Of a stretch of DNA of 64,000 bases, positions 25,517-41,617 are shown piece after piece. This stretch comes from Lachnospiraceae oral taxon 107 str. F0167 (GTDB lineage Bacteria; Bacillota; Clostridia; Lachnospirales; Lachnospiraceae): contig GL890594.1 of assembly GCA_000209465.1 (NCBI GenBank), forward strand, positions 8,634 to 72,633. Direction: 5' to 3'. Under the pieces are notes generated by a model. It was not told where the DNA came from. It searched no databases and saw only the letters and a list, made by a program, of their open reading frames with translations. Position 1 is the stretch's first letter. Each line of letters begins with the position of its first letter. A program made the translations under genes and the position numbers.

Positions 25517-26700
25517 TTTGTCTCCCTTTCTACAACAATTGCTGTGCCCATTCCACCACCTATACATAGTGAAGCAAGGCCGCATTTCACATCTCTTTTT
25601 TCCATCTCAAAGAGTAAAGTGGTAAGTATTCTTGCACCGGATGCTCCGATAGGATGTCCAAGTGCTATTGCACCACCGTTTACATTTGTGATTTCGCTCT
25701 TAAAGCCAAGTTCCCTGCATACTGCAAGAGCCTGTGCCGCAAAAGCTTCATTTGCCTCTACAAGGTCCAAATCATCAACTGTAATACCTGCTTTTTCCAT
25801 TGCTTTTCTTGATGCAGGGATTACTCCAAGTCCCATTACACTAGGATCCACACCGCCTGAAGCATAGCCCTTTATAGTAGCCATGATAGGAAGTTTGAGT
25901 TCCAGTGCTTTTTCCTTGGATGCGATAATAAACATAGCGGCACCGTCATTGATACCTGATGCATTACCTGCGGTTACTGTACCGTCTTTTTTGAAAGCCG
26001 GTTTAAGTTTTGCAAGATTTTCGATTGTAGTATTAAACTTAGGATATTCATCCGTATCAAATACCTTAGGATCACCTTTTCTTTGTGGAATCAGTACAGG
26101 AACTATCTCATCCTTAAGTCTGCCGGTCTCTATGGCAACTTGAGCTCTTCTTTGGCTTTCAACAGAAAATACATCCTGATCCTCTCTGCTGATACCCTTT
26201 TGCTCCGCTATATTCTCCGCTGTTACGCCCATGTGATAGTTATTGAAAGCATCCCAAAGACCATCTGTGATCATTTCATCTATAAAGGTCTGATTGCCCA
26301 TCTTTACGCCGAATCTTGCTCCTTTAACAACATATGGAGCATTTGACATACTCTCGGTACCGCCTGCCAGGATGATATCAGCATCACCGGCTTTGATTAT
26401 TTGAGCTGCCAATTCAATAGTTCTTAGACCTGAACCGCAAACTTTATTTATTGAAAATGCAGGGGTGGTGTTTGGAAGACCTGCACCAAGTATGACCTGA
26501 CGAGCTATATTCTGTCCAAGACCTGCACTAAGTACATTTCCGATGATGGCTTCATCAATAAGAGAAGCATCAATACCTGCACGCTCGATAGCGCCCTTTG
26601 CTGCTGTCACACCCAAATCTACTGCACTCACACCTGCCAATGAACCGCCAAAGCTACCAATAGCTGTTCTTGCAGCACTAACGATAACTACTTCTTTCAT
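25513..26700 (-). CDS. thlA: Acetyl-CoA acetyltransferase (thiolase)
   Basis: 395 residues from the ATG at 26700. Active-site Cys88 ([10 protein letters not shown]), [10 protein letters not shown] (catalytic His) and the C-terminal Cys in CIGGGMG are all present. It condenses two acetyl-CoA to acetoacetyl-CoA, the entry step to butyrate. The start is chosen by the family-typical [15 protein letters not shown]; in-frame codons upstream add an atypical N-terminus. Unusually for the pathway, thl sits with atoDA on the minus strand and faces away from crt-hbd-bcd-etfBA, so the two halves of the pathway can be tuned separately. Confidence 0.96.
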
Positions 26701-27086
26701 ATTCTCATACCTCATATCTTCTATAAAATTAGACAATACCAATAGAGTAAACATTTCCGCCTTGTATTGTCACATATATGTATCATATATAGCATAACAT
26801 AAGTCAAATCAATTATCCACCCCTATACTATTGAAAATTGCTATAAAAAAAACTATAAATATTTATATATATATTATTTAAACAAAGTGTTATAATAGAT
26901 AAAAGTCCGTATATGTCAAAAATACTATAGGAAACAGTTGTTTAATCTTTTGAGACTGCTAAAAAATATATGAAAATAATTTTACTAAATATAATATATA
27001 AAATTACATGTTTTTTGCATACAGCTATTTTTTATATTGGAATATGCTTATGCAAAATAGATATAATGATTAGTCAAAAAAACTGA
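26701..27086. other. Divergent intergenic region between thl and crt
   Basis: Very AT-rich with no plausible gene. A perfect 7-bp inverted repeat with 3-nt spacer (ATATATG/CATATAT, 26774-26790) lies in the thl leader or promoter, where minus-strand TTGACT- and TATATA-like boxes occur. Its base composition makes chance likely. No other structure was fixed. Confidence 0.4.
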
Positions 27087-27140
27087 TTGATTGTCGGATA
27101 TATATATGTTATATTTTTATCATATGGATTGACATGTCAA
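27087..27140 (+). promoter_or_regulatory. Predicted crt promoter with downstream palindrome
   Basis: TTGATT (27087-27092), 17-bp spacer, TATATT (27110-27115). A perfect 12-bp palindrome, TTGACATGTCAA, lies at 27129-27140 just after the expected start site near 27122, a position suited to a repressor. The regulator is unknown. Confidence 0.5.
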
Positions 27141-27175
27141 AAAACGGACATGAAGTATTGACGAGGAGGTGTTTT

Positions 27176-27952
27176 ATGGGTTTTGTAAGGTTTGATACAG
27201 AAGGTGCTGTAGGGATTATTACCATTGATAGACCGAAGGCGCTTAATGCTTTGAACTCCGAAGTGCTGGCTGAACTGGATGCCTGCTTTGACGGTATTGA
27301 TGTAAATTCTGTCAGAGCGGTTATTTTGACAGGTTCGGGAGAGAAGTCTTTTGTGGCAGGTGCGGACATAGGTGAGATGAGTAAATTAAGCCCTGCAGAG
27401 GGTGAAGCTTTCGGAAAAAAGGGAAATGATGTTTTCCGTAAGATTGAAACCTTCCCTATACCGGTAATTGCGGCTGTAAACGGATTTGCACTTGGTGGCG
27501 GATGTGAGATAGCAATGAGCTGTGATATTCGCATATGCTCAGACAATGCAATGTTTGGTCAGCCTGAGGTTGGGCTTGGTATCACACCGGGATTTGGCGG
27601 AACACAAAGACTGGCGAGAATAGTAGGTGTAGGTATGGCAAAGCAACTTATTTACACAGCCAAAACCATAAAAGCGGATGAGGCGTTAAGAATCGGACTT
27701 GTAAATGCCGTATATACACAGGAAGAACTTATGGTTGCAGCAAGGAAGATGGCAAATACCATAGCACAGAATGCCCCTATTGCTGTTCGTGCATGTAAAA
27801 AGGCTATCAATGACGGACTGGATGCCAAGATGGATGATGCTATTGTTATAGAAGAGAAGCTGTTTGGAAGCTGCTTTGAGACACATGATCAGATAGAGGG
27901 AATGAATGCTTTCCTTGAAAAGAGAAAAGAGAAGAATTTTACCAATTCATAA
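27176..27952 (+). CDS. crt: 3-hydroxybutyryl-CoA dehydratase (crotonase)
   Basis: 258 residues from the ATG at 27176, which follows GAGGAGGT. Enoyl-CoA hydratase family: oxyanion-hole segment VAGADIGEM, then GGGCEIAMSCD with Glu111 and GQPEVGLGITPGFGG with Glu131, the two catalytic acids. It dehydrates 3-hydroxybutyryl-CoA to crotonyl-CoA. It is the first gene of the crt-hbd-bcd-etfB-etfA group. An in-frame ATG further upstream (27134) lacks a ribosome-binding site. Confidence 0.95.
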   Translation: MGFVRFDTEGAVGIITIDRPKALNALNSEVLAELDACFDGIDVNSVRAVILTGSGEKSFVAGADIGEMSKLSPAEGEAFGKKGNDVFRKIETFPIPVIAAVNGFALGGGCEIAMSCDIRICSDNAMFGQPEVGLGITPGFGGTQRLARIVGVGMAKQLIYTAKTIKADEALRIGLVNAVYTQEELMVAARKMANTIAQNAPIAVRACKKAINDGLDAKMDDAIVIEEKLFGSCFETHDQIEGMNAFLEKRKEKNFTNS

Positions 27953-28028
27953 GAATTTGGCAGATATAAATTTTTAGTATATTTTAAAATTATTTACAAA
28001 ACATTTTTGTTTCAGAAAGGATAAGAAG

Positions 28029-28865
28029 ATGAAAGTTGGTATTATTGGTGCAGGTACAATGGGTTCAGGCATTGCTCAGGCTTTTGCAATGACAGACGGA
28101 TATGAAGTAAGACTTTGCGATATTAAGGAAGAGTTTGCGCAGGCAGGCTTTGCAAAGATCCAAAAGAATATCAATTTCCTTGTAGGAAAAGAGAAGATAA
28201 CAAAGGAAGCCGGAGATGCAATTATTTCAAAGATAAAAGTAGGCCTTAGCGATATTTGCAGCGACTGTGATTTAATAGTTGAAGTAGCATTAGAGAAGAT
28301 GGAAGTTAAGCAGCAGATTTTTAAAGAACTTCAAAACATTGTTCCTAAGGATTGTATCTTTGCTTCAAATACATCATCACTTTCCATTACAAGAATCGGT
28401 GAAGCACTTGACAGACCTGTAGTAGGAATGCATTTTTTCAATCCTGCTGACAGAATGAAGCTTGTTGAGGTAATAGGCGGAGAAAAGACACCTGCCGATT
28501 TGGTTGAGAAGATTAAAAAGATATCTGAAGATATCGGAAAAACACCTGTACAGGTTAAGGAAGCACCGGGATTTGTAGTAAATCGTATACTTGTTCCGAT
28601 GATCAATGAAGCTATCAATGTATGGGCTGCAGGAACAGCAGATGCTGAGGGCGTAGATACAGCGATGATTCTTGGATGTGCACATCCTATGGGACCACTT
28701 CACTTGGCGGATCTTATCGGTCTTGATATTTGTCTGGCTATTATGGAAGTTATTCACAATGAGACAGGGGATGATAAGTATTTACCTGCTCCGAAGTTAA
28801 AAGAGCTTGTAGCGGCAGGTAAGCTTGGTAAGAAAACAGGAGAAGGAATATTCTCTTATAAGTAA
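28029..28865 (+). CDS. hbd: 3-hydroxybutyryl-CoA dehydrogenase
   Basis: 278 residues. The N-terminal Rossmann domain starts MKVGIIGAGTMGSG. The catalytic His/Glu region is HFFNPADRMKLVEVI, and the C-terminal helical domain includes GPLHLADLIGLD. It reduces acetoacetyl-CoA to 3-hydroxybutyryl-CoA with NAD(P)H. AGAAAGGA precedes the start. It lies 76 bases after crt; a strong hairpin and a structured leader separate it from bcd. Confidence 0.96.
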   Translation: MKVGIIGAGTMGSGIAQAFAMTDGYEVRLCDIKEEFAQAGFAKIQKNINFLVGKEKITKEAGDAIISKIKVGLSDICSDCDLIVEVALEKMEVKQQIFKELQNIVPKDCIFASNTSSLSITRIGEALDRPVVGMHFFNPADRMKLVEVIGGEKTPADLVEKIKKISEDIGKTPVQVKEAPGFVVNRILVPMINEAINVWAAGTADAEGVDTAMILGCAHPMGPLHLADLIGLDICLAIMEVIHNETGDDKYLPAPKLKELVAAGKLGKKTGEGIFSYK

Positions 28866-28872
28866 AATATAT

Positions 28873-29028
28873 ATCCCCCTTTTTACACCAGAATGTAAGA
28901 AGGGGGATTAATACGATATAGATACAAAAGGCGGGTTTGTATTTACTATATAGGTGAAAGAAAACTAAGAAAGGATAACGCAAACAAAGACTTTCACCAT
29001 TTATGTTTGCACTTGGATTTATTCAAGT
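28873..29028 (+). promoter_or_regulatory. Structured leader upstream of bcd: hairpin plus interlocking helices
   Basis: Three elements. First, a 14-bp hairpin (28873-28886 with 28895-28908, C5/G5 core, no T-run). Second, two interlocked helices: GGTGAAAG (28953-28960) with CTTTCACC (28991-28998), and GCAAACA (28980-28986) with TGTTTGC (29004-29010). Each strand of one falls inside the loop of the other, the order of an H-type pseudoknot or of two mutually exclusive folds. Third, a small stem ACTTG/CAAGT (29011-29015 with 29024-29028) touching the bcd ribosome-binding site AGTAGGG (29026-29032). It matches no riboswitch class that I recognise. Function is inferred. Confidence 0.5.
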
Positions 29029-29040
29029 AGGGTATGATTC

Positions 29041-30195
29041 ATGGATTTTACTTTAGACAAGAAACATGAGATGGCAAGAACCCTATTCAGGGAGTTTGCC
29101 GAAAAGGAAGTAAAACCTCTTGCAGTAGAGGTGGATGAAACAGAAGTATTTCCAAGAGAAACTGTAAGGAAGATGGCAAAATACGGTTTCCTTGGTATTC
29201 CTGTAGCAAAGGAATTTGGAGGTCAGGGTGCCGATCCGTTGGCATATGTTATGTGTGTAGAAGAGATATCAAAGGTTTGTGCCACAACAGGCGTTATCGT
29301 CTCAGCTCATACATCCCTTTGTGCCGATCCTATTGCTATGTATGGTACACCGGCTCAAAAGGAAAAGTATCTCATTCCCCTGGCAAAGGGTGAAAAACTC
29401 GGAGCTTTTGCGCTCACAGAGCCTAATGCCGGTACTGATGCACAGGGTGCTGTTACAAAGGCGGTACTTGATGGTGATGATTATGTGTTAAACGGCTCAA
29501 AAATCTTTATTACAAACGGTAAAGAGGCTGATATATATGTTGTAATTGCATGTACAGAGATAAAGGTGGATGCAAAGGGCAGACAGAAAAAGATTTTCTC
29601 GGCATTTATAGTTGAGAAGGATACACCGGGATTCGGCTTTGGAACAAAGGAAAAGAAGATGGGTATCAGAGGCTCATCCACATACGAACTTATTTTTACC
29701 GATTGCAGAGTACCGAAGGAAAATATGTTAGGTCCTGCAGGTAAGGGCTTCGGTATTGCAATGCATACTCTTGACGGCGGTCGTATAGGTATTGCCGCAC
29801 AGGCACTCGGTATTGCAGAGGGTGCACTTGAGAGAACTATTGCATATGTAAAAGAAAGAAAGCAGTTTGGAAGATCTATCGGAGCTTTCCAGAATACTCA
29901 GTTTGAGTTGGCAAATATGGCAACCAAAGTAAAAGCGGCACAGATGCTTGTATATAGAGCTGCAATGGCTAAAGCTACACAGAAGACATATTCAGAAGAA
30001 GCTGCAATGGCAAAGCTGTTTGCGGCGGAGGTAGCTATGGAAGTTACCACCAAGGCGGTTCAGCTTCATGGTGGATACGGATATACAAGAGAGTATGAAA
30101 TTGAGAGAATGATGCGTGATGCTAAGATTACAGAAGTGTACGAGGGTACAAGTGAAGTACAAAGAATGGTAATTGCCGGTTCATTGCTTAAATAA
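29041..30195 (+). CDS. bcd: Butyryl-CoA dehydrogenase
   Basis: 384 residues, acyl-CoA dehydrogenase family. FAD-contact segments ALTEPNAGTD and FITNG are followed by the C-terminal helical bundle with QLHGGYGYTREY and catalytic Glu368 (YEGTSEVQR). Together with EtfAB encoded next it reduces crotonyl-CoA to butyryl-CoA, and in anaerobes the complex bifurcates electrons to ferredoxin (family knowledge). The start at 29041 has AGTAGGG eight bases upstream. Confidence 0.96.
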   Translation: MDFTLDKKHEMARTLFREFAEKEVKPLAVEVDETEVFPRETVRKMAKYGFLGIPVAKEFGGQGADPLAYVMCVEEISKVCATTGVIVSAHTSLCADPIAMYGTPAQKEKYLIPLAKGEKLGAFALTEPNAGTDAQGAVTKAVLDGDDYVLNGSKIFITNGKEADIYVVIACTEIKVDAKGRQKKIFSAFIVEKDTPGFGFGTKEKKMGIRGSSTYELIFTDCRVPKENMLGPAGKGFGIAMHTLDGGRIGIAAQALGIAEGALERTIAYVKERKQFGRSIGAFQNTQFELANMATKVKAAQMLVYRAAMAKATQKTYSEEAAMAKLFAAEVAMEVTTKAVQLHGGYGYTREYEIERMMRDAKITEVYEGTSEVQRMVIAGSLLK

Positions 30196-30221
30196 TAGTG
30201 CTATTACGAATGGAGGATGTC

Positions 30222-31004
30222 ATGAAGATAGTTGTTTGTATTAAACAAGTGCCGGATACCAAGGGCGGTGTTGTTTTTAACCCTGACGGCACATTAAACA
30301 GAGGAGCCATGCTCACAATTATGAATCCCGATGATAAGGCGGGACTTGAGGCGGCGCTCAGAATTAAGGATAAATACGGTGCGGAAGTTACAGTAGTTAC
30401 TATGGGACTTCCAAAAGCTGATGAAGTACTTAGAGAAGCTATGGCAATGGGAGCTGATAAGGCGGTACTTATTACAGACAGAGTACTTGGAGGAGCAGAT
30501 ACCTGGGCTACATCACAGACTATTGCGGGAGCATTAAGAAAGCTGGAATATGATCTTATAATTACAGGTCGTCAGGCTATTGACGGTGATACTGCACAGG
30601 TCGGACCTCAGATTTCAGAACATCTTGATATACCTGTTATCAGCTATGCACAAAAGATAGAAATTGAAGGCGACAGTGTGATAGTGGAGCGCCAGTTTGA
30701 TGATAGATATCATGTTTTAAAAGCAAAGATGCCTGTACTTATTACAGCCCTTTCAGAGCTTAATGAGCCGAGATATATGACTCTGGGCGGTATTTTTGAT
30801 GCTTATGAGAAGGAAGTATGCGTACTTTCAAGAGCCGATCTTGTGGATGTAGACGATTCAAATATCGGATTGAAGGGTTCACCGACACAGATTGCAAAAG
30901 CATCCGATAAGGTAAGAAAGGGTGCGGGGGAACAGGTAAACCTTGGTGCATCAGAATCTGTTGATTACATCATAGGCAAGTTAAAAGAAACACATATCAT
31001 CTAA
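30222..31004 (+). CDS. etfB: Electron transfer flavoprotein, beta subunit
   Basis: 260 residues starting MKIVVCIKQVPD. The signature ITGRQAIDGDTAQVGPQ and the C-terminal region after residue 200 match EtfB. The start at 30222 follows TGGAGG closely; a start a few codons upstream is not preceded by a site. It forms the Etf heterodimer with EtfA and serves Bcd. It lies 26 bases after bcd. Confidence 0.96.
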   Translation: MKIVVCIKQVPDTKGGVVFNPDGTLNRGAMLTIMNPDDKAGLEAALRIKDKYGAEVTVVTMGLPKADEVLREAMAMGADKAVLITDRVLGGADTWATSQTIAGALRKLEYDLIITGRQAIDGDTAQVGPQISEHLDIPVISYAQKIEIEGDSVIVERQFDDRYHVLKAKMPVLITALSELNEPRYMTLGGIFDAYEKEVCVLSRADLVDVDDSNIGLKGSPTQIAKASDKVRKGAGEQVNLGASESVDYIIGKLKETHII

Positions 31005-31017
31005 AAAGGAGTCGTTT

Positions 31018-32070
31018 ATGAGACAGAATACAGAGGAATACAGGGGAGTGTTTACATTTGCCCAACAGGTAGACGGCAAATTGAGCGGTATTTCCCTTGA
31101 ACTTATTGGTAAAGGTAAGGATTTGGCTGCTGACCTTAATACAGAAGTAACAGCAGTACTTTTGGGATCTGATATAAAGGGTTTGGTTGATGAACTCGCT
31201 GAACATGGTGCGGACAAAATAATAGTAGTAGATGATTCCAAATTAAAAGAGTATCGTACAGAGCCATATACACAGGCACTTGCAGCAGTTATAAATGAGT
31301 TTAAGCCTGAGATATTTATTATCGGAGCTACAGCTATAGGAAGAGATCTTGGTCCAAGAGTTTCAGCAAGAGTCGGAACCGGACTTACAGCAGACTGTAC
31401 ACAGCTTGAAATAGGAGATTATCCATTGGTAGCTATTGCAGGAAGAGAGCAAAAACATAATCAGCTTCTTATGACCAGACCTGCATTTGGTGGAAATACC
31501 ATAGCAACTATTGCATGTCCTGAGAACAGACCGCAGATGGCAACAGTCCGTCCGGGTGTTATGCAAAAGAAGGAGAGAGTTGCGGGAGCAAAGGCACAGA
31601 TAATAGACTTTGATGCAAAGCTGACAGAAAATGATAAATATGTGGAGATTTTGGAGATTGTAAAGAATGCCAAGACTACAGAAGATATCATGGCTGCAAA
31701 GATTTTGGTATCAGGAGGTAGAGGTGTAGGTTCAGCCGAGAACTTCAAGATACTTAAGGATTTGGCAGATGTACTTCACGGTACTGTAAGCTGTTCAAGG
31801 GCTGTAGTGGATGCAGGCTGGATGCCTAAGGATATTCAGGTAGGACAGACCGGTAAAACAGTCCGTCCGCATCTATACTTTGCAATAGGTATCTCAGGTG
31901 CAATACAGCATCTTGCAGGTATGGAAGAAAGTGATATCATCATCGCTATAAATAAAGATGAGACAGCACCTATTTTCAGTGTTGCGGATTACGGTATTGT
32001 AGGTGATTTGAATAAGATAGTACCTGCACTTACAGAGAAGATAAAGGCTGAGCTTGCAAAGGAAGAATGA
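31018..32070 (+). CDS. etfA: Electron transfer flavoprotein, alpha subunit
   Basis: 350 residues. The N-terminal adenine-nucleotide-like domain is followed by a C-terminal FAD-binding domain with SGGRGVGS, SRAVVDAGWMP, QVGQTGKTV and AIGISGAIQH, the classical EtfA motifs. AAAGGAG lies before the ATG and a strong terminator follows, so it ends the butyrate operon. Confidence 0.96.
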   Translation: MRQNTEEYRGVFTFAQQVDGKLSGISLELIGKGKDLAADLNTEVTAVLLGSDIKGLVDELAEHGADKIIVVDDSKLKEYRTEPYTQALAAVINEFKPEIFIIGATAIGRDLGPRVSARVGTGLTADCTQLEIGDYPLVAIAGREQKHNQLLMTRPAFGGNTIATIACPENRPQMATVRPGVMQKKERVAGAKAQIIDFDAKLTENDKYVEILEIVKNAKTTEDIMAAKILVSGGRGVGSAENFKILKDLADVLHGTVSCSRAVVDAGWMPKDIQVGQTGKTVRPHLYFAIGISGAIQHLAGMEESDIIIAINKDETAPIFSVADYGIVGDLNKIVPALTEKIKAELAKEE

Positions 32071-32109
32071 TTACATTAGATATTAAAATCTTAGATAATC
32101 TTTAAAATA

Positions 32110-32156
32110 AAAATCGCTATAAACTACTTAACGGAGTTTATAGCGATTTTTTGTTT
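32110..32156 (+). terminator. Intrinsic terminator of the butyrate operon
   Basis: Perfect 16-bp stem (32110-32125 with 32135-32150), 9-nt loop, then TTGTTT. Confidence 0.93.
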
Positions 32157-32179
32157 ATAAGAGAGTGCATATTTCCTGC

Positions 32180-32208
32180 TTGACATAAATCAAAAATTAT
32201 TTTATAAT
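32180..32208 (+). promoter_or_regulatory. Full-consensus promoter of cooS
   Basis: TTGACA (32180-32185), exactly 17 bp, TATAAT (32203-32208). Start is expected near 32215, giving a leader of about 70 nt. A perfect consensus suggests strong or repressor-controlled transcription; no clear operator was found. Confidence 0.9.
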
Positions 32209-32283
32209 CAAAAAACATTTTAACATACTAAACTAATAGGTAAATAGGCCATTGAGTTTTTTAAAAAGCAGGAAGGAAGTCTC

Positions 32284-34446
32284 ATGGGAAAGAAAGAACA
32301 TAATCATGAACATAGCCATAAACACAGTCATGAACATAGTCATGAACATCATCATGATGAGCATGGAGTAGATCATATCCATAGCCATAGAAATTTAATA
32401 GGCTTTGATGAACATGGTATACCGACAATTACTTTAAAATCGGATCATGAAGAGGATGGGGATGATAAGGCATTTATAAGAGATTACATGAATGCGGTTT
32501 CAGAATATAGAAAAACTTTTCCGTCAAAGGATGAGGTACTTGAAAACACTCCGGATCCGGCTGTAAAAGAAATGATTTTACGACAGAATCAGCTTGGATT
32601 TGATACCACCTTTGACAGATTTGACAAACAGCAGCCACAATGTAGTTTCGGTATGGCGGGTATTTGCTGTAAAATCTGTAATATGGGACCATGTAAGATA
32701 ACTTCAAAAAGTCCTAAAGGAATTTGTGGTGCCGATGCGGACTTAATAGTTGCAAGAAATTTACTTCGTTCCGCCGCTGCAGGTGTTGCACAGCATGGTA
32801 TGCATGGGCGTGAGGTTATATTGTCTTTAAAATGGGCGGCTGAAGGGAAACTTGACTTGCCTATTTTAGGACAGCAAAAGATAAAGGATGTTGCAAAGGC
32901 TTTTGGAATAAAGACAGAGAGAAGAAGTATTAAAAAGATTGCCTCAGAGCTTGCAGATATACTTTTAGATGATATGAGCCGTACAGTGCCGGGAGAGTAT
33001 AAAATAATTGAAGCACTGGGTTTGGAAGAAAGAAAAAATACCTGGAAAAAGTTGGATATTTTGCCGATAAGTGCCTATCATGAGGTCTTTGAAGCTTATC
33101 ATAAAACAGGTGTGGGTACAGATGGTGATTGGAAGAGTGTTATGCAGCAGTTTCTGCGATGCGGTCTTGCATTTACATATTCAGGTGTGGTAAGCACAGC
33201 CATAGCTACAGACGGGCTTTTTGGAGTAGGTGACAGGGTGACTTCAAAGGTAAATATAGGGGCACTGAAAAAGGGCTATGTAAATATTGCGGTACATGGA
33301 CATCTTCCTACTTTAGTCAGCGAGATAGTAAAGGTAGGACAGGAAGAGAAGTATATAGATTTGGCTAAAAAAGCAGGTGCAAAGGGTATAAGATTCTATG
33401 GAATCTGCTGTTCGGGGCTTTCTGCAATGTATCGATATGCCGGAGTTATTCCTCTTTCAAATGCGGTATCTGCCGAGCTGGTGCTTGGAACAGGTGCACT
33501 TGATCTTTGGATTGCGGATGTACAGGATGTATTCCCGGCTATAATGGAGGTGGCAAATTGCTTTAGAACCACAGTTATTACAACCAGTGAGTCTGCAAGG
33601 CTTCCGGGAGCGGAAAGATTTGAATATGACCATCATCATTCAAACATAGGAGAAACAAGAGAGCTTGCGGAAAAAATAATACTCAGGGGAATTGAAAGCT
33701 TCAAAGACAGACAGGGTATACCTGTATATATTCCACCATATGAGGTGGATGCTGAGGTGGGATTTTCACCTGAATATGTACATAAGCACTATGGCTCAAT
33801 GAGACCTCTGTATGAAGCACTAAAGGAAGGTAAGATACTGGGTATTGTAAATCTGGTGGGATGTAATAATCCGAAGGTGGTTTATGAAAAATGTATTATT
33901 GATGTAGCCAATGCATTATTAAGAAATAATATTTTGATTCTTACAAACGGTTGTGCATCATTTCCACTTATGAAGATGGGATATTGCAATATTTCAGGTC
34001 AGGATCATGCAGGTGAGGGATTAAAGGAATTTCTTGGAGATCTTCCGCCGGTATGGCATGTTGGAGAATGTATTGATAATACAAGATCAAGCGGTATACT
34101 GTCAGGAGTAGCGGGTGAGGCAGGCAAGGCTTTATTTGAAATGCCTTTTGCATTTACTTCTCCCGAGTGGAGCAATGAAAAGGGAATAGATGCCGCACTT
34201 GGCTTCAGACTTATGGGAATCAATTCATATCACTGTGTAGAGGCTCAAATTCACGGTTCAAAGAATGTAATAGAATTTTTGAAGGAGGGAACGAAGGAAT
34301 TACTTGGCTCTGTTATGGTTGTAGATACAAATCCCGACTCTCTGGGTGAAAAAATAGTTGCAGATATTATTGAGAAGAGGAAAGCACTTGGATGGGCTGT
34401 ACCTGATGAGATAGTTCATAAAGAGGAAGAATTGGTTTTAGTATAG
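32284..34446 (+). CDS. cooS: CooS-type anaerobic carbon monoxide dehydrogenase homologue with His-rich N-terminus
   Basis: 720 residues, longer than the roughly 635 of typical CooS because of an N-terminal extension with 15 His in residues 6-35. Cluster ligands compared with a remembered Carboxydothermus CODH-II sequence: D-cluster Cys120 and Cys128; B-cluster Cys129, Cys132, Cys137, Cys148; C-cluster His338, Cys376, Cys527, Cys557, Cys596. The position of the remaining C-cluster ligand (Cys333 of CODH-II) is Asp415, in ADVQDVF where the reference has DYQC. Candidate acid-base residues (AAGVAQHGMH and NEKG) are kept. It stands alone: no cooC, cooF, acsA/B or hydrogenase genes are near. It may oxidise CO or, given the altered site, be a CooS-V-like variant with another reaction. 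Confidence 0.88.
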   Translation: MGKKEHNHEHSHKHSHEHSHEHHHDEHGVDHIHSHRNLIGFDEHGIPTITLKSDHEEDGDDKAFIRDYMNAVSEYRKTFPSKDEVLENTPDPAVKEMILRQNQLGFDTTFDRFDKQQPQCSFGMAGICCKICNMGPCKITSKSPKGICGADADLIVARNLLRSAAAGVAQHGMHGREVILSLKWAAEGKLDLPILGQQKIKDVAKAFGIKTERRSIKKIASELADILLDDMSRTVPGEYKIIEALGLEERKNTWKKLDILPISAYHEVFEAYHKTGVGTDGDWKSVMQQFLRCGLAFTYSGVVSTAIATDGLFGVGDRVTSKVNIGALKKGYVNIAVHGHLPTLVSEIVKVGQEEKYIDLAKKAGAKGIRFYGICCSGLSAMYRYAGVIPLSNAVSAELVLGTGALDLWIADVQDVFPAIMEVANCFRTTVITTSESARLPGAERFEYDHHHSNIGETRELAEKIILRGIESFKDRQGIPVYIPPYEVDAEVGFSPEYVHKHYGSMRPLYEALKEGKILGIVNLVGCNNPKVVYEKCIIDVANALLRNNILILTNGCASFPLMKMGYCNISGQDHAGEGLKEFLGDLPPVWHVGECIDNTRSSGILSGVAGEAGKALFEMPFAFTSPEWSNEKGIDAALGFRLMGINSYHCVEAQIHGSKNVIEFLKEGTKELLGSVMVVDTNPDSLGEKIVADIIEKRKALGWAVPDEIVHKEEELVLV
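32302..32349 (+). repeat. Tandem 12-bp repeat encoding the His-rich tail
   Basis: Four head-to-tail 12-mers; the last two are identical (AGTCATGAACAT, 32326-32337 and 32338-32349) and the first two are diverged. Each adds four residues, two of them His. Such in-frame repeats can grow or shrink without a frameshift. Confidence 0.85.
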
Positions 34447-34496
34447 TTTTGTAAAACAGTATAAATTATAGAACATTTTGAATATAGATATAAGTA

Positions 34497-34524
34497 TTGA
34501 CAACTGATATAGAAGATGTACAAT
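34497..34524 (+). promoter_or_regulatory. Promoter of the 35-residue membrane protein gene
   Basis: TTGACA (34497-34502), 16-bp spacer, TACAAT (34519-34524). Start is expected near 34531. Confidence 0.75.
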
Positions 34525-34574
34525 GAAAATAAGCAAAAGCTTTGTGAATCAACTTATAATGGGGAGGATAAGTT

Positions 34575-34682
34575 ATGGATATGCAGTTGTTTTGGGATGC
34601 TTTGGCACCGGTTATAAATATAGGAGTTTGGGTTGGTCTTGGACTTTTTATAAGGTATTTAATAATAAGACTTAAAAAGTAA
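34575..34682 (+). CDS. Small single-span membrane protein (35 residues)
   Basis: ATG 34575 follows GGGGAGG (34561-34567) at 7 bases. The product begins MDMQLFWDALAPVINIG, has one hydrophobic helix (about 11-31), and ends in a basic tail RLKK, giving an N-out/C-in orientation by the positive-inside rule. It has its own promoter and a strong terminator 31 bases after the stop, so it is a free-standing transcription unit between cooS and the convergent VWA gene. I do not recognise the family. It could be a small regulatory membrane peptide or a toxin-like peptide; neither is shown. Confidence 0.7.
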   Translation: MDMQLFWDALAPVINIGVWVGLGLFIRYLIIRLKK

Positions 34683-34713
34683 GAGGCAGTTAAACAGGAT
34701 GTATAGCCGGTAT

Positions 34714-34753
34714 AAAAAGAGTAGTTTGCCGTTTTGGCAAACTACTCTTTTTT
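34714..34753. terminator. Bidirectional terminator between the small-protein gene and the VWA gene
   Basis: Perfect 17-bp stem, 34714-34730 with 34736-34752, 5-nt loop, T-rich in both directions. It overlaps the stop codon of the minus-strand VWA gene. Confidence 0.93.
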
Positions 34754-36452
34754 ACATTCTCCTTATTTCCGCCTGTATCATATTTCCGACCAAAGATGCA
34801 AAATTATCAAGAGATTTTACTTTTACAAAACTTCTGCCGAAGATTTTTTGAACATTCGGTATATCGGCATCATCACCGGTAAAGGCGCAGAGTACATAGA
34901 TATTTTCCAGTTTAGCTCTATGAACAAGCTCGGTCATATCTTCTATAGCGATATCACCGCTGTAGTTGGTGGATTTTTGGCTTACCTCCATTATATCATT
35001 GGGTTTGACATCGGTAAGCCAGATTACCACTCTATGGGTGGCTGTATTTTCTCTCATCTGACATAATATGGCATTTAGAGCCAAACCGTCTCTATTTGCA
35101 CCTGTAGTAAAGAATCTGAATATTTCTTTGTTTTTTGAGCTTTCACTATAATTGCGATAAAGATTCATTACAGTATATCCGTTCATAGATGAATATCCCC
35201 ACACTCTTACAGGAACATGGCAGTTATCAAGAGCTTTGGCAATGATATATCCCTGTGCGGAAACTGTATCCATACGATGTATCTGTGAGGCGGAGGCGTC
35301 AAGTAAAATATCGACACTGATATTACCGCTGCCCTCAACGACTTGTTTTTCAAAAATCTTATTGTTATTAAGATATAGAGCCTTCCAAACAAGAGAAGGT
35401 TTAAGTTTTCCGGTCTTTGAGCAGACGGCGGTAGGCTCCAGCTGTGTAAGAAGAGCGTTTTTTATTCTATGAGTAAGCTCGGAAATTGCCGCATTATTTA
35501 TTTTCATATTTGAAAAGAATGCAGCTTCATTTTTCTCACGCTGTTTTTTCATTTCTTTTCTCATTTTGGCGGCAAAGCCCGTGACCTTTTCTTCATCCTC
35601 ACCTCTTGTGAAAAATATTCGAGTACCTAAGTGATTGCCGGTACAACATTCTCTTTGAATTTTTTCGGAAGTTTTATCATCATATATGGATTTGCCGAAA
35701 TAACTGCTGATATATTTTCTAAGTCCTTCCTCCGTGACTCGGTTGAATTTTTCGGAGTCGGTTTCAAAGGCTGAGGTATCGGAACCTCCCTGATTTTCGA
35801 CATAACCTACAACAAGTTTTTTTGCACCTGATATTTCACTCGATACTCCGGCTTTTTTTCCAAAGAAGAGTCTTGGTATGGGTATTTTAAACTTTCGTTT
35901 TTGTCCCTTTGAACCGACTCCCGGAAGATAGGTAAAATACTTTGCCAAAGTGGATGAAAGACTTTTTATAAAGCCTTCCGTATCAACATCTCCTGAGATT
36001 TCCAGCTCATCAAGAAGCTTTCTGTCCACAAGATCCGGAAGTCCGCTGTCCTCTCCTATGGATGTTTTATAATGTCCTTCAAGTATCCATCCCTCTCTGC
36101 TTTCTGCTATGCTTGGCATAAATTCACGAAGCTTTTTTTTGCAATATTCTGTTCGCAAAAGCAAAAGCCCCGGTCTTTTATCTTTTTCCTTTTCAAAGGT
36201 GGTATTTTCAAGTGCAATCCAAAATAATGCCTCGTAGGTGCCCTGACCGACTGTTTCATGAAAGGTATTATAAAATTCTTTCAGCTTTTTCCAGTCAAAA
36301 TGGGCATAGCTGCTTCCAAGTATCGTATTCCAATATAAATCAGCTTTTGCATCATCATCATACATACGAAAACCGACAGAAACATTATAATTTCCGGCTG
36401 CATTCCAAATCATATTTGCAGCCCTCTTTTTTTCAAATTCTGTTAAAATCAT
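34752..36452 (-). CDS. VWA-domain (CoxE/NorD-like) protein
   Basis: 566 residues. The C-terminal third holds a von Willebrand factor A domain with MIDAS motif DASAS (Asp385, Ser387, Ser389), Thr in FFTTGAN and the acidic WLTDVKPND. The N-terminal half has no recognisable domain. Basic and Cys-containing segments (RECCTGNH, about 268-274) are present. Its start overlaps the stop of the MoxR ATPase gene (ATGA). Such MoxR/VWA pairs (CbbQ/CbbO, NorQ/NorD, CoxD/CoxE) insert metals or remodel enzymes. It converges on cooS, so a role in maturing that enzyme is possible but only inferred. Confidence 0.8.
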   Translation of the reverse strand: MILTEFEKKRAANMIWNAAGNYNVSVGFRMYDDDAKADLYWNTILGSSYAHFDWKKLKEFYNTFHETVGQGTYEALFWIALENTTFEKEKDKRPGLLLLRTEYCKKKLREFMPSIAESREGWILEGHYKTSIGEDSGLPDLVDRKLLDELEISGDVDTEGFIKSLSSTLAKYFTYLPGVGSKGQKRKFKIPIPRLFFGKKAGVSSEISGAKKLVVGYVENQGGSDTSAFETDSEKFNRVTEEGLRKYISSYFGKSIYDDKTSEKIQRECCTGNHLGTRIFFTRGEDEEKVTGFAAKMRKEMKKQREKNEAAFFSNMKINNAAISELTHRIKNALLTQLEPTAVCSKTGKLKPSLVWKALYLNNNKIFEKQVVEGSGNISVDILLDASASQIHRMDTVSAQGYIIAKALDNCHVPVRVWGYSSMNGYTVMNLYRNYSESSKNKEIFRFFTTGANRDGLALNAILCQMRENTATHRVVIWLTDVKPNDIMEVSQKSTNYSGDIAIEDMTELVHRAKLENIYVLCAFTGDDADIPNVQKIFGRSFVKVKSLDNFASLVGNMIQAEIRRM

Positions 36453-37366
36453 GAAAAAATATTCTCCCCGGGAAGGCTCTTTGGCAATCTGGCATTTACA
36501 ATATCCAGCACCAGCTGTCTTTCATATTCATCAAAGCATTTATTGATAAGCCCCATTTCAAGCGCCTTTGTTACATTTAGACCTTTTTTCATCATACCTA
36601 TACATGAGATAAGACCTCTTAAATCAAGACTTCTTGTGGATATTTCACCACCTTCTCCCTTTTTTCTTATTTCATCAAAAAGAGAGGTGAACTGTGAGAT
36701 ATACTCGGGTTTTAATGTAGGGTATTTATCCTTTATAAGTTTGCCAAGGTTTTCACCTGTTATAACAGGCATATGAAGTACCATAAATCTGGATGCAAGT
36801 GCTTCATTCATCTCCCTTGTACCGGCATATCCGTAGTTCATGGTACCGATAAATCTGGTAGCTTCATGGAGATTTATCCTGTCATATCCGGGTAAATCGA
36901 TAACACGCCTAAAGTCAAGCACCGCATGAAGTACGGCAAGGGATTCGTTTTTTGCCATATTTATTTCATCCAGTACACCAAAGCCGCCCTTTATTGCACA
37001 ATTTAATACAGGGCCTTTTCTTAATTTTACTTCTCCATTCTCAAAGGTATCCGAACCTATAAGGGATGACGCATCGGTATTGATATAAAGCGATATATCC
37101 CATTCGGGACGGGCAAAGGCTGTGGCAAGATTTTCAGCCAGTACATTTTTTCCTGTAGCCTTTGCGCCGTCCAGTAAAATATTTTCACCTGCGATTATCG
37201 CTGTAGCCGCCTCCTCCCAGATTTCTTTTCCATAGTAGAGATAGGACTCTTTTGGAATCCTTTGTTCTTCTTCCTTTTCAAGCTTATAAAACTTGCGAAA
37301 TGAAATTATTTCTGAAATTATTTTATCTGATATATTTTCCTGTTTTAAAAATTCTAAAATTTCCAT
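36449..37366 (-). CDS. MoxR-family AAA ATPase
   Basis: 305 residues. The Walker A is atypical, GAKATGKN (67-74), with Asn where Thr or Ser usually follows the Lys. Walker B is GVLDEINMA (Asp133, Glu134), followed by sensor-1 TMNYGYAGT and the arginine-finger region ASRF. This is the CbbQ/NorQ-like layout. It is the first gene of a two-gene operon with the VWA protein, with AGAGGA upstream. It probably works as a hexameric motor with the VWA partner as adaptor. The Walker A change may alter nucleotide handling. Confidence 0.85.
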   Translation of the reverse strand: MEILEFLKQENISDKIISEIISFRKFYKLEKEEEQRIPKESYLYYGKEIWEEAATAIIAGENILLDGAKATGKNVLAENLATAFARPEWDISLYINTDASSLIGSDTFENGEVKLRKGPVLNCAIKGGFGVLDEINMAKNESLAVLHAVLDFRRVIDLPGYDRINLHEATRFIGTMNYGYAGTREMNEALASRFMVLHMPVITGENLGKLIKDKYPTLKPEYISQFTSLFDEIRKKGEGGEISTRSLDLRGLISCIGMMKKGLNVTKALEMGLINKCFDEYERQLVLDIVNARLPKSLPGENIFS

Positions 37367-37397
37367 AGTATCCTCTGTTTATTTTTATTGATTTATG

Positions 37398-37413
37398 GGT
37401 AAATATATTTACC
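37398..37413 (-). promoter_or_regulatory. Perfect 16-bp palindrome in the MoxR-VWA promoter region
   Basis: GGTAAATATATTTACC lies between a possible minus-strand promoter (TTGTCG, 18 bp, TATACC at 37419-37424) and the MoxR start. It is a candidate operator; the regulator is unknown. Confidence 0.5.
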
Positions 37414-37451
37414 TAAAAGGTATAGAATTGTTTCATAAAAAACGACAATTC

Positions 37452-37496
37452 TAAAAAACTCCCAAGACAGTATTATATTACAACTGTCTTGGGAGT
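37452..37496 (-). terminator. Intrinsic terminator of the cstA-like gene
   Basis: Perfect 14-bp stem (37458-37471 with 37483-37496), 11-nt loop, and a T-run on the minus strand (complement of 37454-37458). Confidence 0.92.
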
Positions 37497-37508
37497 AGCA
37501 ATAATTTA

Positions 37509-39050
37509 TTATGCCGGATCTGCAGGAGTGGTACCGCCTTTTTTACCTCTCCAAAGAATAAGAACTGCATAAACAGCAGCAACAACTGCACCGCCTATAT
37601 AAGCAACACCCCAGCTTTGTCCAAAGCCAAGCTTTGCATTTAAGATATAGCAGGCACAAATATATGTGTAGAACACTCCGGGGATGAGAGTCATCCACGC
37701 CCATTTTACCTTATTATGTATAATCAGATAAATGCTTGCCGCAGCAAGAGGGAAGAGTGCCATTGTCTGGTTTGACCATGCAAAATATCTCCATAAGATA
37801 TTAAATCCCTTAGGATCAACCTTTGCCCAAACAAGAATTCCACCTACTATAATAAAAATAGGTAATGCAAGGCTAAGTCTACGAGGATTATTATCCTGCT
37901 TGATGTGGAATGTATCCGCAATTGTAAGTCTGAGTGCACGAAGCGCTGTATCTCCTGAAGTAACAGGTAGTATAATAATACCGATAAGTGCAACCGCTCC
38001 ACCTACAGGACCGAGTGCCTTTCTGCAAAGTACACCGACAACACTGGTAGGAGAAATAGCAACCAACTCTCCACCCTTTTGAATCATATACTGCCATACG
38101 CCCTTATCACTAAGTTGCATTGTGATACCGCCGTTTGCAGCTGTAAACTGAATCAATGCCATTGTACCGGCAGCCCATACCATTGCGATAAAGCCCTCAA
38201 CAACCATCATATTGTAGAAAGTCATACGACCGTCTTTTTCACTCTTTATTGTACGCGCAACAAGAGCTGTCTGAGATGAGTGGAATCCTGAAAGGATACC
38301 GCAGGCTACAGTAACAAAGAAAATAGGAACAAAATGTCCTTCCTTGAAGTATGCGGCATAGTCAAATGATGTTGTTGCCCAATCACCCCAAACCTCTACA
38401 AGCGGATAATGGAAAATAACCATTGCGGCGAATACACCGATTGCGGAGAATACAAGGATTGCACCGAATATAGGATAAACTCTTCCTATAATCTTATCGA
38501 TAGGGAATACTGTTGCAACCAAGTAATAGACGAAAATAACTCCATAAATAACCCAGGTCGAAACCTCTGTAGGAGCACCGCTGAAACCAAAAACCTGAGT
38601 TGCGGCGATATCACCCGGTGTATAAATGAATACGGTACCTACCAATAGAAGCAATAAGCATACAAATGCGTCATATATCCAGAAGACTGTTTTATTGGTA
38701 TATTTACGAACCATTTCAGGCATTTGAGCACCACCGTCTCTGGTACAGATCATTCCGGCAAAATAATCGTGAACAGCACCGCCGATTACATTACCTATCG
38801 GTATTGTAAGGAGTGCAATAGGTCCGAATAAGATACCCTGGATCGGTCCAAGGATAGGTCCGGTACCTGCGATATTGAGCAGGTTGATTAAAGCATTTTT
38901 CCATGTTGGCATAGGAACATAGTCAACGCCGTCCTGTCTGGAAAAGGCGGGTGTTTCTCTGTCATCAGGCTGGAAAACATGGTCACAAAGGCGCCCCATA
39001 ATAAATCCACCTACGATCAGGATAACAAGACCAATCATAAATGTTGCCAT
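37509..39050 (-). CDS. cstA: CstA-family carbon-starvation / pyruvate-type transporter
   Basis: 513 residues, a short CstA, with about 13-15 hydrophobic segments. Typical CstA segments include GTGPILGPIQGILFG near the N-terminus, GGAVHDYFAGM and the central SGFHSSQTALVARTI. The family imports pyruvate or peptides under carbon limitation. It is monocistronic, with a terminator right after the stop. A minus-strand TATAAT with a TGTCAT box lies about 110 bases upstream of the start. Substrate is inferred from the family only. Confidence 0.9.
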   Translation of the reverse strand: MATFMIGLVILIVGGFIMGRLCDHVFQPDDRETPAFSRQDGVDYVPMPTWKNALINLLNIAGTGPILGPIQGILFGPIALLTIPIGNVIGGAVHDYFAGMICTRDGGAQMPEMVRKYTNKTVFWIYDAFVCLLLLLVGTVFIYTPGDIAATQVFGFSGAPTEVSTWVIYGVIFVYYLVATVFPIDKIIGRVYPIFGAILVFSAIGVFAAMVIFHYPLVEVWGDWATTSFDYAAYFKEGHFVPIFFVTVACGILSGFHSSQTALVARTIKSEKDGRMTFYNMMVVEGFIAMVWAAGTMALIQFTAANGGITMQLSDKGVWQYMIQKGGELVAISPTSVVGVLCRKALGPVGGAVALIGIIILPVTSGDTALRALRLTIADTFHIKQDNNPRRLSLALPIFIIVGGILVWAKVDPKGFNILWRYFAWSNQTMALFPLAAASIYLIIHNKVKWAWMTLIPGVFYTYICACYILNAKLGFGQSWGVAYIGGAVVAAVYAVLILWRGKKGGTTPADPA

Positions 39051-39230
39051 AGAAAATTCCTCTCTTTCTTTCTATGTTAAATTGTTGTATATGTAAAGAT
39101 ACTACTTGTTAATATTTTTTTCAATATTTTTTAATAAAACATCAGAGAGAGTTATTATAAAAATAAAAGAAATACATGACATTTTATCTGTAATTAATTA
39201 AAGAATAATTAAATTATTAAGATAAATATG

Positions 39231-39260
39231 GTTAGCAACAGCTAACTGTGTTAATATAAG
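39231..39260 (+). promoter_or_regulatory. Inverted repeat overlapping a weak promoter upstream of the M14-like gene
   Basis: Perfect GTTAGC-N4-GCTAAC repeat (39231-39246). A weak promoter, TTAGCA (39232-39237), 17 bp, TATAAG (39255-39260), has its -35 inside the repeat, so a bound regulator would block it. The rest of the 39051-39296 region is AT-rich and holds the divergent cstA leader. Confidence 0.5.
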
Positions 39261-39296
39261 CATAACGATTAATTATCATCAGGAAAGGTTAAATTT

Positions 39297-40223
39297 GTGA
39301 AAATAGGAGAAATTTTAATAAAAAAAGGAGAGAAGAAAAAGTTTAAAACCGGTCAGATAAGCGGTGTGATTTTTTGTGGTAAAAATGAAGGTAAAACTCT
39401 TGTAATAACAGCCGGAGTACATGGTTGTGAGTATGTCGGAATAGAGACTTCACTAAGGCTTATAAATGAGCTTAATCCAAAGAAAATGTCAGGAAATATT
39501 ATTATTTGTCCTATTTTGAATACGGACGGATTTTATAATGGTGTAAAGCAAATCTCCACAGTGGATGGAAAAAATTTAAACAGAGAATTTCCGGGAGATA
39601 AGGAAGGCAGCATTACTCAAAAAATTGCCCATGATGTGGAAAAATATCTATATCCATTGGCTGATTTTATAGTGGATTTGCATGGTGGAGATATAAATGA
39701 AAGCCTTACACCTCTTATATTTTTCCCATACGCTTCGGGAGAGGAGATAAAAAGCTATGTAGGAGATATAGCCTCCAGAATGAATGTGGATTTTAGAGTG
39801 GGTTCGTATGCAAATAACGGTCTCTACAGCTATGCCACAAAGAAAGAAATTCCCGCAATGCTTTATGAAAGAGGTTCTAAAGGTCTATGGAGTGAGGCTG
39901 ATGTACTTGCTGAAAAGGAAGATCTTTACAGGCTTATGGAGATGCTTGGAATATTAAAAGAAGGTTATGATATAAGTATAAATAAAAATCAAAAAGAAAT
40001 AGTGAAGGCTGAATATGTGGAAGCAAGGAGTGAGGGGCTGTGGTATCCACATGTTAAAAAAAGTGATAATGTAAAAAAAGGTGAATTGCTTGGGATTTTA
40101 AAAGATATTGAAGGGAATATCCTGCAAGAAGTCAGGGCGGAGTTTGATGCCCGGGTTTTATACTATACCTTATCCTTAGGTGTAAGACAAAATGATGCTT
40201 TAATAGCTTATGGAAGAGAATAA
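39297..40223 (+). CDS. M14-like succinylglutamate desuccinylase/aspartoacylase family protein
   Basis: 308 residues with a GTG start at 39297, about 8 bases after AGGAAAGG. The zinc site of the AstE/aspartoacylase group is visible: HGCE (His42, Glu45), then DLHGGD (His129). NREFPG and the late LYERG fit substrate binding and the catalytic Glu. The C-terminal third (about 230-308) is a beta-rich domain with VKKGELLGIL, like a biotinyl/barrel hybrid. It would hydrolyse an N-acyl amino acid or similar amide in the cytosol; the actual substrate is unknown. A terminator-like palindrome follows before fabH. Confidence 0.82.
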   Translation: MKIGEILIKKGEKKKFKTGQISGVIFCGKNEGKTLVITAGVHGCEYVGIETSLRLINELNPKKMSGNIIICPILNTDGFYNGVKQISTVDGKNLNREFPGDKEGSITQKIAHDVEKYLYPLADFIVDLHGGDINESLTPLIFFPYASGEEIKSYVGDIASRMNVDFRVGSYANNGLYSYATKKEIPAMLYERGSKGLWSEADVLAEKEDLYRLMEMLGILKEGYDISINKNQKEIVKAEYVEARSEGLWYPHVKKSDNVKKGELLGILKDIEGNILQEVRAEFDARVLYYTLSLGVRQNDALIAYGRE

Positions 40224-40258
40224 AATACTTAAAAAAATCATATCATGCTCTAAAACAC

Positions 40259-40287
40259 TTGACAAAGTTCTATTGCAAAATTAAAAT
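40259..40287 (+). promoter_or_regulatory. Promoter of the fatty-acid synthesis operon
   Basis: TTGACA (40259-40264), 17-bp spacer, TAAAAT (40282-40287). Start is expected near 40294, inside the FabT-like palindrome. Confidence 0.85.
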
Positions 40288-40309
40288 ACTTTGAGTATCA
40301 AAGTATTTT
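40283..40309 (+). promoter_or_regulatory. FabT-like operator overlapping the fab promoter
   Basis: Perfect 12-bp arms (40283-40294 with 40298-40309) around GTA. The core matches the streptococcal FabT consensus (A-N-TTTGA-TT-A-TCAAA-TT) at 14 of 16 fixed positions. It covers the -10 box and start site, ideal for repression by FabT and acyl-ACP. Being followed by T-rich sequence, it could also terminate transcription from the upstream gene. No fabT gene is in the window. Confidence 0.75.
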
Positions 40310-40348
40310 TTTGCTTTGATGAAAGTCTTATGAAAGGGCTTATAGAAG

Positions 40349-41290: not shown

Positions 41291-41349
41291 TTATTTACAA
41301 CTTATATATAAAAAATAAAAAGCCTTGGGCTTAAAGAATGGAGAAAATT

Positions 41350-41586: not shown

Positions 41587-41592
41587 AAATAA

Positions 41593-41617
41593 AAAACGCC
41601 TTCTTTAGGCGTTTTCT
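41593..41617 (+). terminator. Weak internal terminator/attenuator after acpP
   Basis: 8-bp stem AAAACGCC/GGCGTTTT (41593-41600 with 41608-41615), 7-nt loop, tail CTT. Short and within the operon, it probably gives partial termination that raises the acpP:fabK mRNA ratio. Confidence 0.55.

Follow-up and report, generated by a model that had tools for sequence, protein, structure and literature searches.

A putative clade B Ni,Fe carbon monoxide dehydrogenase with a histidine-rich head and an aspartate at a C-cluster cysteine position in Lachnospiraceae oral taxon 107

Clade B (group B-1) of the nickel carbon monoxide dehydrogenases (Ni-CODHs) is defined, in the portion of Inoue et al. (2019; PMC6344411) available to us, by an Asp or Glu at the second C-cluster Cys together with an N-terminal His-rich region. 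The same portion links the clade to NitT/TauT ATP-binding cassette (ABC) transporters and proposes that the transporter imports Ni, which the His region then inserts. A 2026 eLife survey (PMC13056359), in its accessible excerpts, reports that 64% of clade B operons contain ABC genes, that 24% lack any neighbour, and that maturases are missing from nearly all, and raises a non-canonical or degenerated role whose nature could not be deduced in that survey. Clade B ABC contexts in gut genomes were also described by Katayama et al. (2024; PMC11338639, available in part). Here, we investigated a cooS gene in a stretch of 64,000 nucleotides (the window) from the draft genome, 95.8% complete, of Lachnospiraceae oral taxon 107 str. 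F0167 (contig GL890594.1, positions 8,634 to 72,633 of the forward strand). Judged by its sequence, the product has the defining features of group B-1, so it belongs to a known branch of CODHs and is not unprecedented. See Table 1 for the coordinates of all features.

The window CooS scored 503 bits against the CODH profile TIGR01702 (cut-off 478), and its nearest solved chain in a search against Protein Data Bank (PDB) chains was 6t7j (E 3.4e-123). A first-pass annotation of this DNA had proposed a CooS homologue with a His-rich head, and the profile score, the PDB match, and the His count confirm it. The cysteines of the D- and B-clusters, as well as four of the five C-cluster cysteines and the C-cluster His, were all found in place as that annotation had claimed. 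The D-cluster is formed by C120 and C128 with the type II spacing C-X7-CC (C120-X7-C128-C129), the B-cluster by C129, C132, C137, and C148, and the acid-base His is kept (H171, equivalent to H93 of Carboxydothermus CODH-II). For CODH-II numbering, a classic relative (L109) was aligned to the 1su6 chain, residues were counted, and the numbers were transferred through a 149-row alignment; the count put C333, H261, C295, C446, C476, C526, K563, H93, D219, and I567 at their expected places. Cys596 corresponds to CODH-II Cys526, which we take to be a Ni ligand.

The exception is Asp415, with which the protein departs from the canonical set of five C-cluster Cys plus His (clades A, E, and F). Its placement at the Cys333 position had been made from a remembered sequence and is borne out by the 1su6 count and by three PDB chain alignments, in each of which Asp415 lies opposite the second C-cluster Cys. 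We also considered Cys426, which had been named as a residue that might fill the Cys333 role instead. The alignment puts Cys426 at CODH-II Cys344, and because CODH-II has both C344 and C333, Cys426 does not appear to be a displaced ligand.

The sample comprised the window with the best 80 of 126 relatives (81 loci) and 20 further loci, a total of 101. The 149-row alignment has Asp or Glu in the Cys333 column in 108 rows (D 97, E 11) and Cys in the other 41 CODH rows, the two groups being defined by that column itself. Every Asp/Glu row also has Phe for Asp219, Leu for Asn298, and Glu for Ser525, the residue preceding Cys526 (108/108 each), and all 107 rows with a letter there have Ala for Ile567. 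H93, H261, C295, C446, C476, C526, and K563 are kept in each Asp/Glu row with a letter at the position. The D-, B-, and remaining C-cluster ligands are invariant across the 79 aligned relatives, with one gap at K563; L030 is absent from that alignment and is included in the 149-row table and the 81-locus count. Clade-specific conserved residues stand at 33 positions in comparison with 13 classic rows, using a 107-row list from which the late-starting L154 was left out. As Table 2 of the earlier definition covers cluster ligands and acid-base residues only (PMC6344411, available in part), the changes D219F, N298L, S525E, and I567A are, on this alignment, additions to it. The ratio of nonsynonymous to synonymous rates (dN/dS) of the core is 0.033-0.035 against L003, L005, and L036, a rough figure since dS is near 1. 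With the other C-cluster ligands, H93, and K563 preserved and a dN/dS of about 0.035, the gene is likely under selection for a working protein, and decay is unlikely.

A single branch with a support of 100 parts the Cys rows from the Asp/Glu rows, and the passage from Asp to Glu takes two changes, in a tree of 76 of the 149 rows (thinned at 88% identity; quick method, midpoint root, some long branches). On this tree, the carboxylate at the Cys333 position has a single origin. The nearest Cys row, L191, sits on a long branch, has no His head, and carries the same ABC operon as clade B relatives. The window CooS groups with Ruminococcus, Butyrivibrio, and Pseudobutyrivibrio loci, on a tree built without published reference accessions, and four Lachnoanaerobaculum loci are 93-94% identical to it over the best segment, which places the host in or near that genus. 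One of these, L003, and the same-genus genome G377 appear to be the identical genome (same coordinates) and are not independent. Five loci from Ruminobacter and from metagenome-assembled genomes titled proteobacterium or Campylobacter (L061, L067, L042, L070, and L044) encode proteins 72-76% identical to the window CooS, with an ABC solute-binding gene in all five and c3/c4 (two small membrane proteins, see below) in four, which suggests gene transfer among gut bacteria. In eleven Asp-type enzymes (L192-L195, L153, and L185-L190), the H96 position is Arg rather than His.

The His residues of the head lie at positions 6, 8, 10, 12, 14, 16, 18, 20, 22, 23, 24, 27, 31, 33, and 35, a density far above chance. 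The feature is general: 4-27 His precede the core in 78 of the 79 aligned relatives (the exception, L082, is cut by a contig end), and at least three His are found at the N-terminus of every complete Asp/Glu row in the subset with the N-terminus printed. Within the linker that joins head and core, H33, H35, R36, I39, G40, F41, D42, G45, and P47 are invariant in a 24-row alignment.

Table 1. Features of the cooS gene, its product, and its upstream region (positions in the window)
Feature	Position	Strand	Basis
cooS, clade B Ni-CODH catalytic subunit (predicted), 720 aa, ATG start	32284..34446	+	ORF list, profile and structure matches, tree
His-rich head, residues 1-36, 15 His in 6-35	32284..32391	+	counted on translation; recurs in relatives
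Linker motif HSHRxLIGFDEHGIPT, residues 33-51	32380..32436	+	conserved, 24-row alignment
D-/B-cluster Cys C120, C128, C129, C132, C137, C148	32641..32727	+	79/79 relatives
Phe297 at CODH-II Asp219 position	33172..33174	+	F in 108/108 Asp/Glu rows
His340 = CODH-II His261 (Fe ligand)	33301..33303	+	1su6 count and alignment
Cys376 = CODH-II Cys295	33409..33411	+	1su6 count and alignment
Asp415 = CODH-II Cys333, changed C-cluster ligand	33526..33528	+	PDB chains, 1su6 count, alignment
Cys527 = CODH-II Cys446	33862..33864	+	1su6 count and alignment
Cys557 = CODH-II Cys476	33952..33954	+	1su6 count and alignment
Glu595-Cys596 = CODH-II Ser525-Cys526	34066..34071	+	E 108/108, C 108/108 rows
Lys633 = Lys563 (acid-base), Ala637 = Ile567	34180..34194	+	K 107/107, A 107/107 rows with a letter
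Hairpin resembling an intrinsic terminator (stem 15 bp, loop 9 nt, T tract), between etfA and cooS	32111..32149	+	read from sequence
Promoter TTGACA-17-TATAAT, 12/12 match	32180..32208	+	pattern scan
Ribosome-binding-site-like AGGAAGGAAG	32270..32279	+	read from sequence

Neighbouring genes were counted with hidden Markov models on six-frame open reading frames (ORFs) within 8 kb of CooS, where 31 of the 81 loci extend for under 4.5 kb to one side. A solute-binding protein was found in 67 of the 81 loci, a permease in 65, and the small membrane proteins c3 and c4 in 47 and 46, respectively, along with LarB in 4, LarC in 3, LarE in 3, CbiM in 3, and UreC in 2. The other 20 loci gave a solute-binding protein in 15, a permease in 15, LarE in 2, UreC in 1, and neither c3 nor c4. 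Over all 101 loci, the nearest c3, c4, and solute-binding hit of a locus always shares the strand of CooS, the median gaps being 44, 308.5, and 68 bp, respectively. None of the profiled neighbours was detected in 4 of the 81 loci (the window, L004, L007, and L036) and in 5 of the 20.

The solute-binding protein is NMT1_2/SsuA-like, under the SsuA cut-off, and is closest to Staphylococcus aureus 3un6 (E 2.6e-60), which the available part of Inoue et al. (PMC6344411) describes as a metal-binding protein. Across rows with a letter in 81 of these proteins, H52, H118, H150, E177, E194, C221, and C222 are invariant, and they are shared with the printed piece of 3un6. H150 is not specific, because the nitrate-type 3e4r also has a His there. 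Taken together, these residues would suit a metal or a metal chelate, without proving one. Sulfur-related genes were also seen: cysteine synthase-like genes near 7 loci and O-acetylhomoserine sulfhydrylase-like genes near 10, with Rrf2-like genes near some (all named by eye). A role in sulfur assimilation was tried and set aside, as no SAM, T-box, NiCo, TPP, or guanidine element reached the Rfam gathering score in the window and 27 other loci; the Rfam matches in those 28 sources were tRNAs, Clostridiales-1, RAGATH-18, TwoAYGGAY, and pemK. In some Lachnospiraceae, a SLAC1/TDT-family anion channel gene adjoins CooS without ABC genes, directly upstream in L197 and L198 and divergent in L201 (Pfam for L198, others by eye).

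Some relatives sit among genes for nickel use. In the Lachnoanaerobaculum loci L003 and L005, CooS is followed directly on the same strand by AmiS/UreI, ureA, ureB, ureC, UreE, UreF, UreG, UreD, CbiM, CbiQ, and CbiO (in L003, UreI, UreC, UreE, UreF, UreG, UreD, and CbiM were named by Pfam/NCBIfam and the rest of the run by eye). A distant clade B locus, L203 (62% identical), has ureC and ureAB-, ureF-, ureG-, and ureD-like genes upstream of CooS, the accessory genes being named by eye. The order in L081 is CbiM, CbiQ, CbiO, LarE, LarB, LarC, CooS, and then the ABC genes (CbiM, CbiQ, LarE, LarB, and LarC by NCBIfam or Pfam). LarE-LarB-LarC-CooS also occurs in L008 and L009, and LarB in L063.

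The pair c3/c4 has no Pfam, NCBIfam, or convincing PHROG name; weak matches of c3 to NF045849 (17 bits, cut-off 40) and of c4 to phrog_33013, a family with no assigned function (E 0.0003 over 27 residues), were set aside. A motif FEHxWHxE is invariant in c3 in a 9-row alignment. Of 291 genomes from the class of the host, 32 carry c3, and none of these is among the 12 with an Asp/Glu CooS in that sample; one of the 32, G149, has an untyped CooS fragment. LarC occurs in 28 of the 32 c3 genomes against 98 of the 259 others (Fisher p 6e-8), in 27 of 31 once a fragmentary c3 hit is removed (p 1.4e-7), and by genus in 15 of 17 against 74 of 164 (p 0.0007). Counted by eye, 11 of the 31 strong cases have LarC on the same contig no more than about 2.2 kb from c3. 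Among 20 c3 stretches, LarB, LarC, or LarE is present in 7 and absent in 13, several of which are short; neighbours were counted over the whole stretch, and some c3 genes escaped ORF calling (L169, L170, L173, L178, L180, and L181). By sequence association, then, c3/c4 tends to occur in nickel surroundings where CooS is absent as well and is probably an unnamed, nickel-linked family. In these stretches (L165-L184; c3/c4 in L166, L175, L176, and others), c3/c4 lies beside LarB/C/E, DUF362, DUF3842, or an ArsP-like permease, and no clade B CooS was found.

The window itself is sparser. By eye, no cooC, cooF, or acs was seen among its ORFs of at least 80 aa at 25000-42000 and at least 200 aa elsewhere, where shorter genes could escape; a genome-wide search, which covered the ACS family and not CooC or CooF, gave no ACS match. 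The first-pass annotation had reported the same absence and read it as support for a non-canonical use. The absence stands, and the reading does not, since a lack of maturases is usual for clade B (PMC13056359, in its accessible excerpts) and does not single out this gene. Our searches of the window genome found no c3, LarC, urease, or NiFe hydrogenase, nor the solute-binding protein (8 genomes searched, two seemingly identical, without a positive control). Because urease, ACS, NiFe hydrogenase, and LarC were not found, CooS is the sole candidate nickel enzyme among the families searched in this genome.

The favoured reading is that the window CooS is a clade B Ni,Fe-CODH under selection, probably active, with its own nickel-binding head and CO oxidation as its likeliest reaction; as a whole we rate this somewhat better than an even bet. 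Of its parts, we are fairly confident that the protein is a nickel enzyme, and we lean only modestly towards CO/CO2 chemistry. It builds on the intact D-/B-cluster wire, on Cys596, His340, Cys376, His171, and Lys633, and on the carboxylate at the Cys333 place. The His-rich head would capture Ni(II) and pass it on to the C-cluster, taking the role of CooC/CooJ, and the Asp (or Glu) would ligate the [3Fe-4S] part of the C-cluster, shifting its potential and Ni loading. The D-cluster would exchange electrons with the ferredoxin or flavodoxin pool of a fermenting Lachnoanaerobaculum, and the oxidation of CO to CO2 would most likely serve low-level CO scavenging. In most relatives, cooS is arranged in a row with transporter or other membrane genes, some of them nickel-linked; in the window it stands alone on its own promoter. 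The first-pass annotation had offered either a CODH that carries a nickel store of its own and an unusual ligand or a CooS relative with another redox reaction. The former is the better fit, given the nickel genes around some relatives; the published group B-1 match had been overlooked.

Several points weigh against this reading. It is least secure at the reaction itself, since residues presumed to shape the CO pocket differ: Asp219, Ile567, and Asn298 are conserved in the 13 classic rows and all changed in the Asp/Glu rows, which could mean a different substrate (Asp219 and Ile567 are presumed to lie near the cluster). No CO-metabolism partner gene was seen beside cooS in the loci read. An AlphaFold model of the window CooS, with a mean pLDDT of 65.8 and values below 50 at 414-417, was too poor for the geometry of Asp415 and was left unused. 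Only 6 of the 81 and 3 of the 20 loci have nickel-named genes (Lar, CbiM, UreC) inside the 8-kb range, counted without a random-locus control, and beyond these the case for nickel depends on c3/c4, a pair whose role we infer in turn. LarC is present in 10 of the 12 Asp/Glu CooS genomes against 116 of 279 others (p 0.006), a weak difference that ignores kinship. Because c3, the solute-binding protein, LarC, and urease were not found in the window genome, the nickel context is that of relatives; the one CbiMNQO set on another contig (CbiM by profile, the rest by eye) may serve cobalt or nickel. Biochemical characterisation of clade B was still awaited in 2026 (PMC13056359, in part), and we found no characterised clade B enzyme, nor a description of its urease or Lar neighbours, among open PMC titles and abstract starts, subscription journals being outside that scope.

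The pocket changes lead to the most credible of the alternatives, a nickel enzyme with another reaction, in which a non-CO substrate such as a small sulfur, nitrogen, or C1 compound would enter through the SsuA-like ABC transporter or the SLAC1-type channel. Consistent with it are the replacements that are uniform across 107-108 rows (Ile567 to Ala, the loss of Asp219), a change of Trp570 to Gly, Ala, or Ser, the SsuA-like protein next to CooS in most loci, the cysteine synthase- and sulfhydrylase-like genes, and the gene of the SLAC1 family that immediately precedes CooS in L198 (by eye, also in L197). However, the acid-base His93 and Lys563 and the Ni and Fe1 ligands of CO chemistry are kept, no sulfur-type riboswitch reached the gathering score in the 28 sources, and the Cys-type L191 carries the same ABC genes, so that the transporter is not linked to the ligand change. 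The sulfur role set aside above survives only within this alternative, which we consider unlikely while giving it real weight. A more specific version, that clade B is a separate nickel enzyme with a carboxylate-ligated C-cluster and a non-CO/CO2 reaction, matured by the His head without CooC and often supplied by c3/c4, is speculative; in it, c3/c4 would be a two-component small membrane nickel system also serving nickel-pincer cofactor synthesis, and we give the two together the same low credence.

Missing maturases, one lost cluster ligand, and a large His reservoir could also point to a CODH fold without turnover, used as a nickel store or a redox/CO sensor, in keeping with the possibly degenerated function raised in the excerpts of the survey (PMC13056359). 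A store could do without the electron wire of the D- and B-clusters and without the catalytic His and Lys, yet all of these are invariant in the rows read, and the low dN/dS over the core speaks against it as well, so that we regard this use as improbable. A further alternative is a hydroxylamine or NO reductase with a nickel-free hybrid cluster, like hybrid cluster protein (HCP) or CooS-V; these share the Prismane superfamily with CooS, and hydroxylamine reductase activity is possible in CODH variants (PMC6344411, available part). Against it, HCP has Glu ligands at the C295 and H561 positions as well as a persulfide Cys and keeps a Cys at 333 (PMC10502027, available in part), so that clade B departs from HCP too. 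The window CooS has C376 and N631 in place of those Glu ligands (N631 counted from K633 = K563), some relatives have nickel neighbours, and the window genome holds a separate 616-aa protein, HCP by eye, which is the only Prismane-family match besides CooS. We therefore give this alternative very little credence.

In contrast to most relatives, the window cooS seems to be transcribed alone from its own promoter, as read from the upstream sequence. The scan gave 14 promoter-like sites against 10.1 expected in shuffles, and the site before cooS (Table 1) is the sole 12/12 match. All four Lachnoanaerobaculum loci share both hexamers with the window, and AGGAAGGAA is likewise conserved across the five aligned sequences. 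A stem and T tract similar to the hairpin, which fell outside the pattern scan (loop limit 8), is found in L003, L004, and L036, and its 3' arm in L005. We considered coupling to the upstream butyrate genes and rejected it because the terminator-like hairpin and the promoter intervene. The 5' leader (32209-32283) holds a block ACATACTAA...TAGGTAAATAGG that is conserved in Lachnoanaerobaculum, has no Rfam match, and could be a regulator site. Convergent with cooS, on the minus strand at 34752-37366, are a 566-aa protein, VWA-like by eye and with no Pfam match, and a MoxR/AAA_5 ATPase; this is a variable site, since the pair is seen at the same place in L004 and not in L003, L005, or L036.

The close relatives in clade B belong to anaerobes of the gut, the rumen, and the mouth, and the function of the clade is an acknowledged open question (PMC13056359, in part). 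New here are the single origin of the Asp/Glu, the accompanying residue changes, the nickel surroundings of some relatives, and the promoter of the window gene. A single-origin ligand change, an invariant pocket signature, and nickel genes near some members make nickel dependence directly testable, and we offer the unnamed membrane protein pair c3/c4 as a candidate nickel component.

Compared with known systems, the head resembles the HxH repeats of CooJ and HypB, a likeness drawn in the available part of PMC6344411; unlike those His-rich nickel proteins, it is fused to the enzyme, and its metal binding is putative. CooS-V and HCP belong with the window CooS to the Prismane superfamily. Kinship with CooS-V (group D-1), raised earlier for this gene, is not supported: in CooS-V, Glu replaces C295 and Tyr replaces H93 (PMC6344411, available part), whereas the window CooS keeps C376 and H171 at these positions. 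CooS-V and HCP replace C295 and keep the 333-type Cys, and the window CooS does the reverse. With Carboxydothermus CODH-II (1su6) and the classic CODHs it shares the fold family, the D- and B-clusters, all other C-cluster ligands, His93, and Lys563, and it differs in Cys333 to Asp, Asp219 to Phe, Ile567 to Ala, and the His head. It departs from the clade B norm in that NitT/TauT ABC genes are not beside it and the solute-binding protein was not found in its genome; membership still fits, because ABC genes occur in only 64% of the clade (PMC13056359, in part). The closest match is group B-1, with which it shares the Asp/Glu at the second C-cluster Cys, the His-rich N-terminus, the type II D-cluster, and the acid-base His and Lys.

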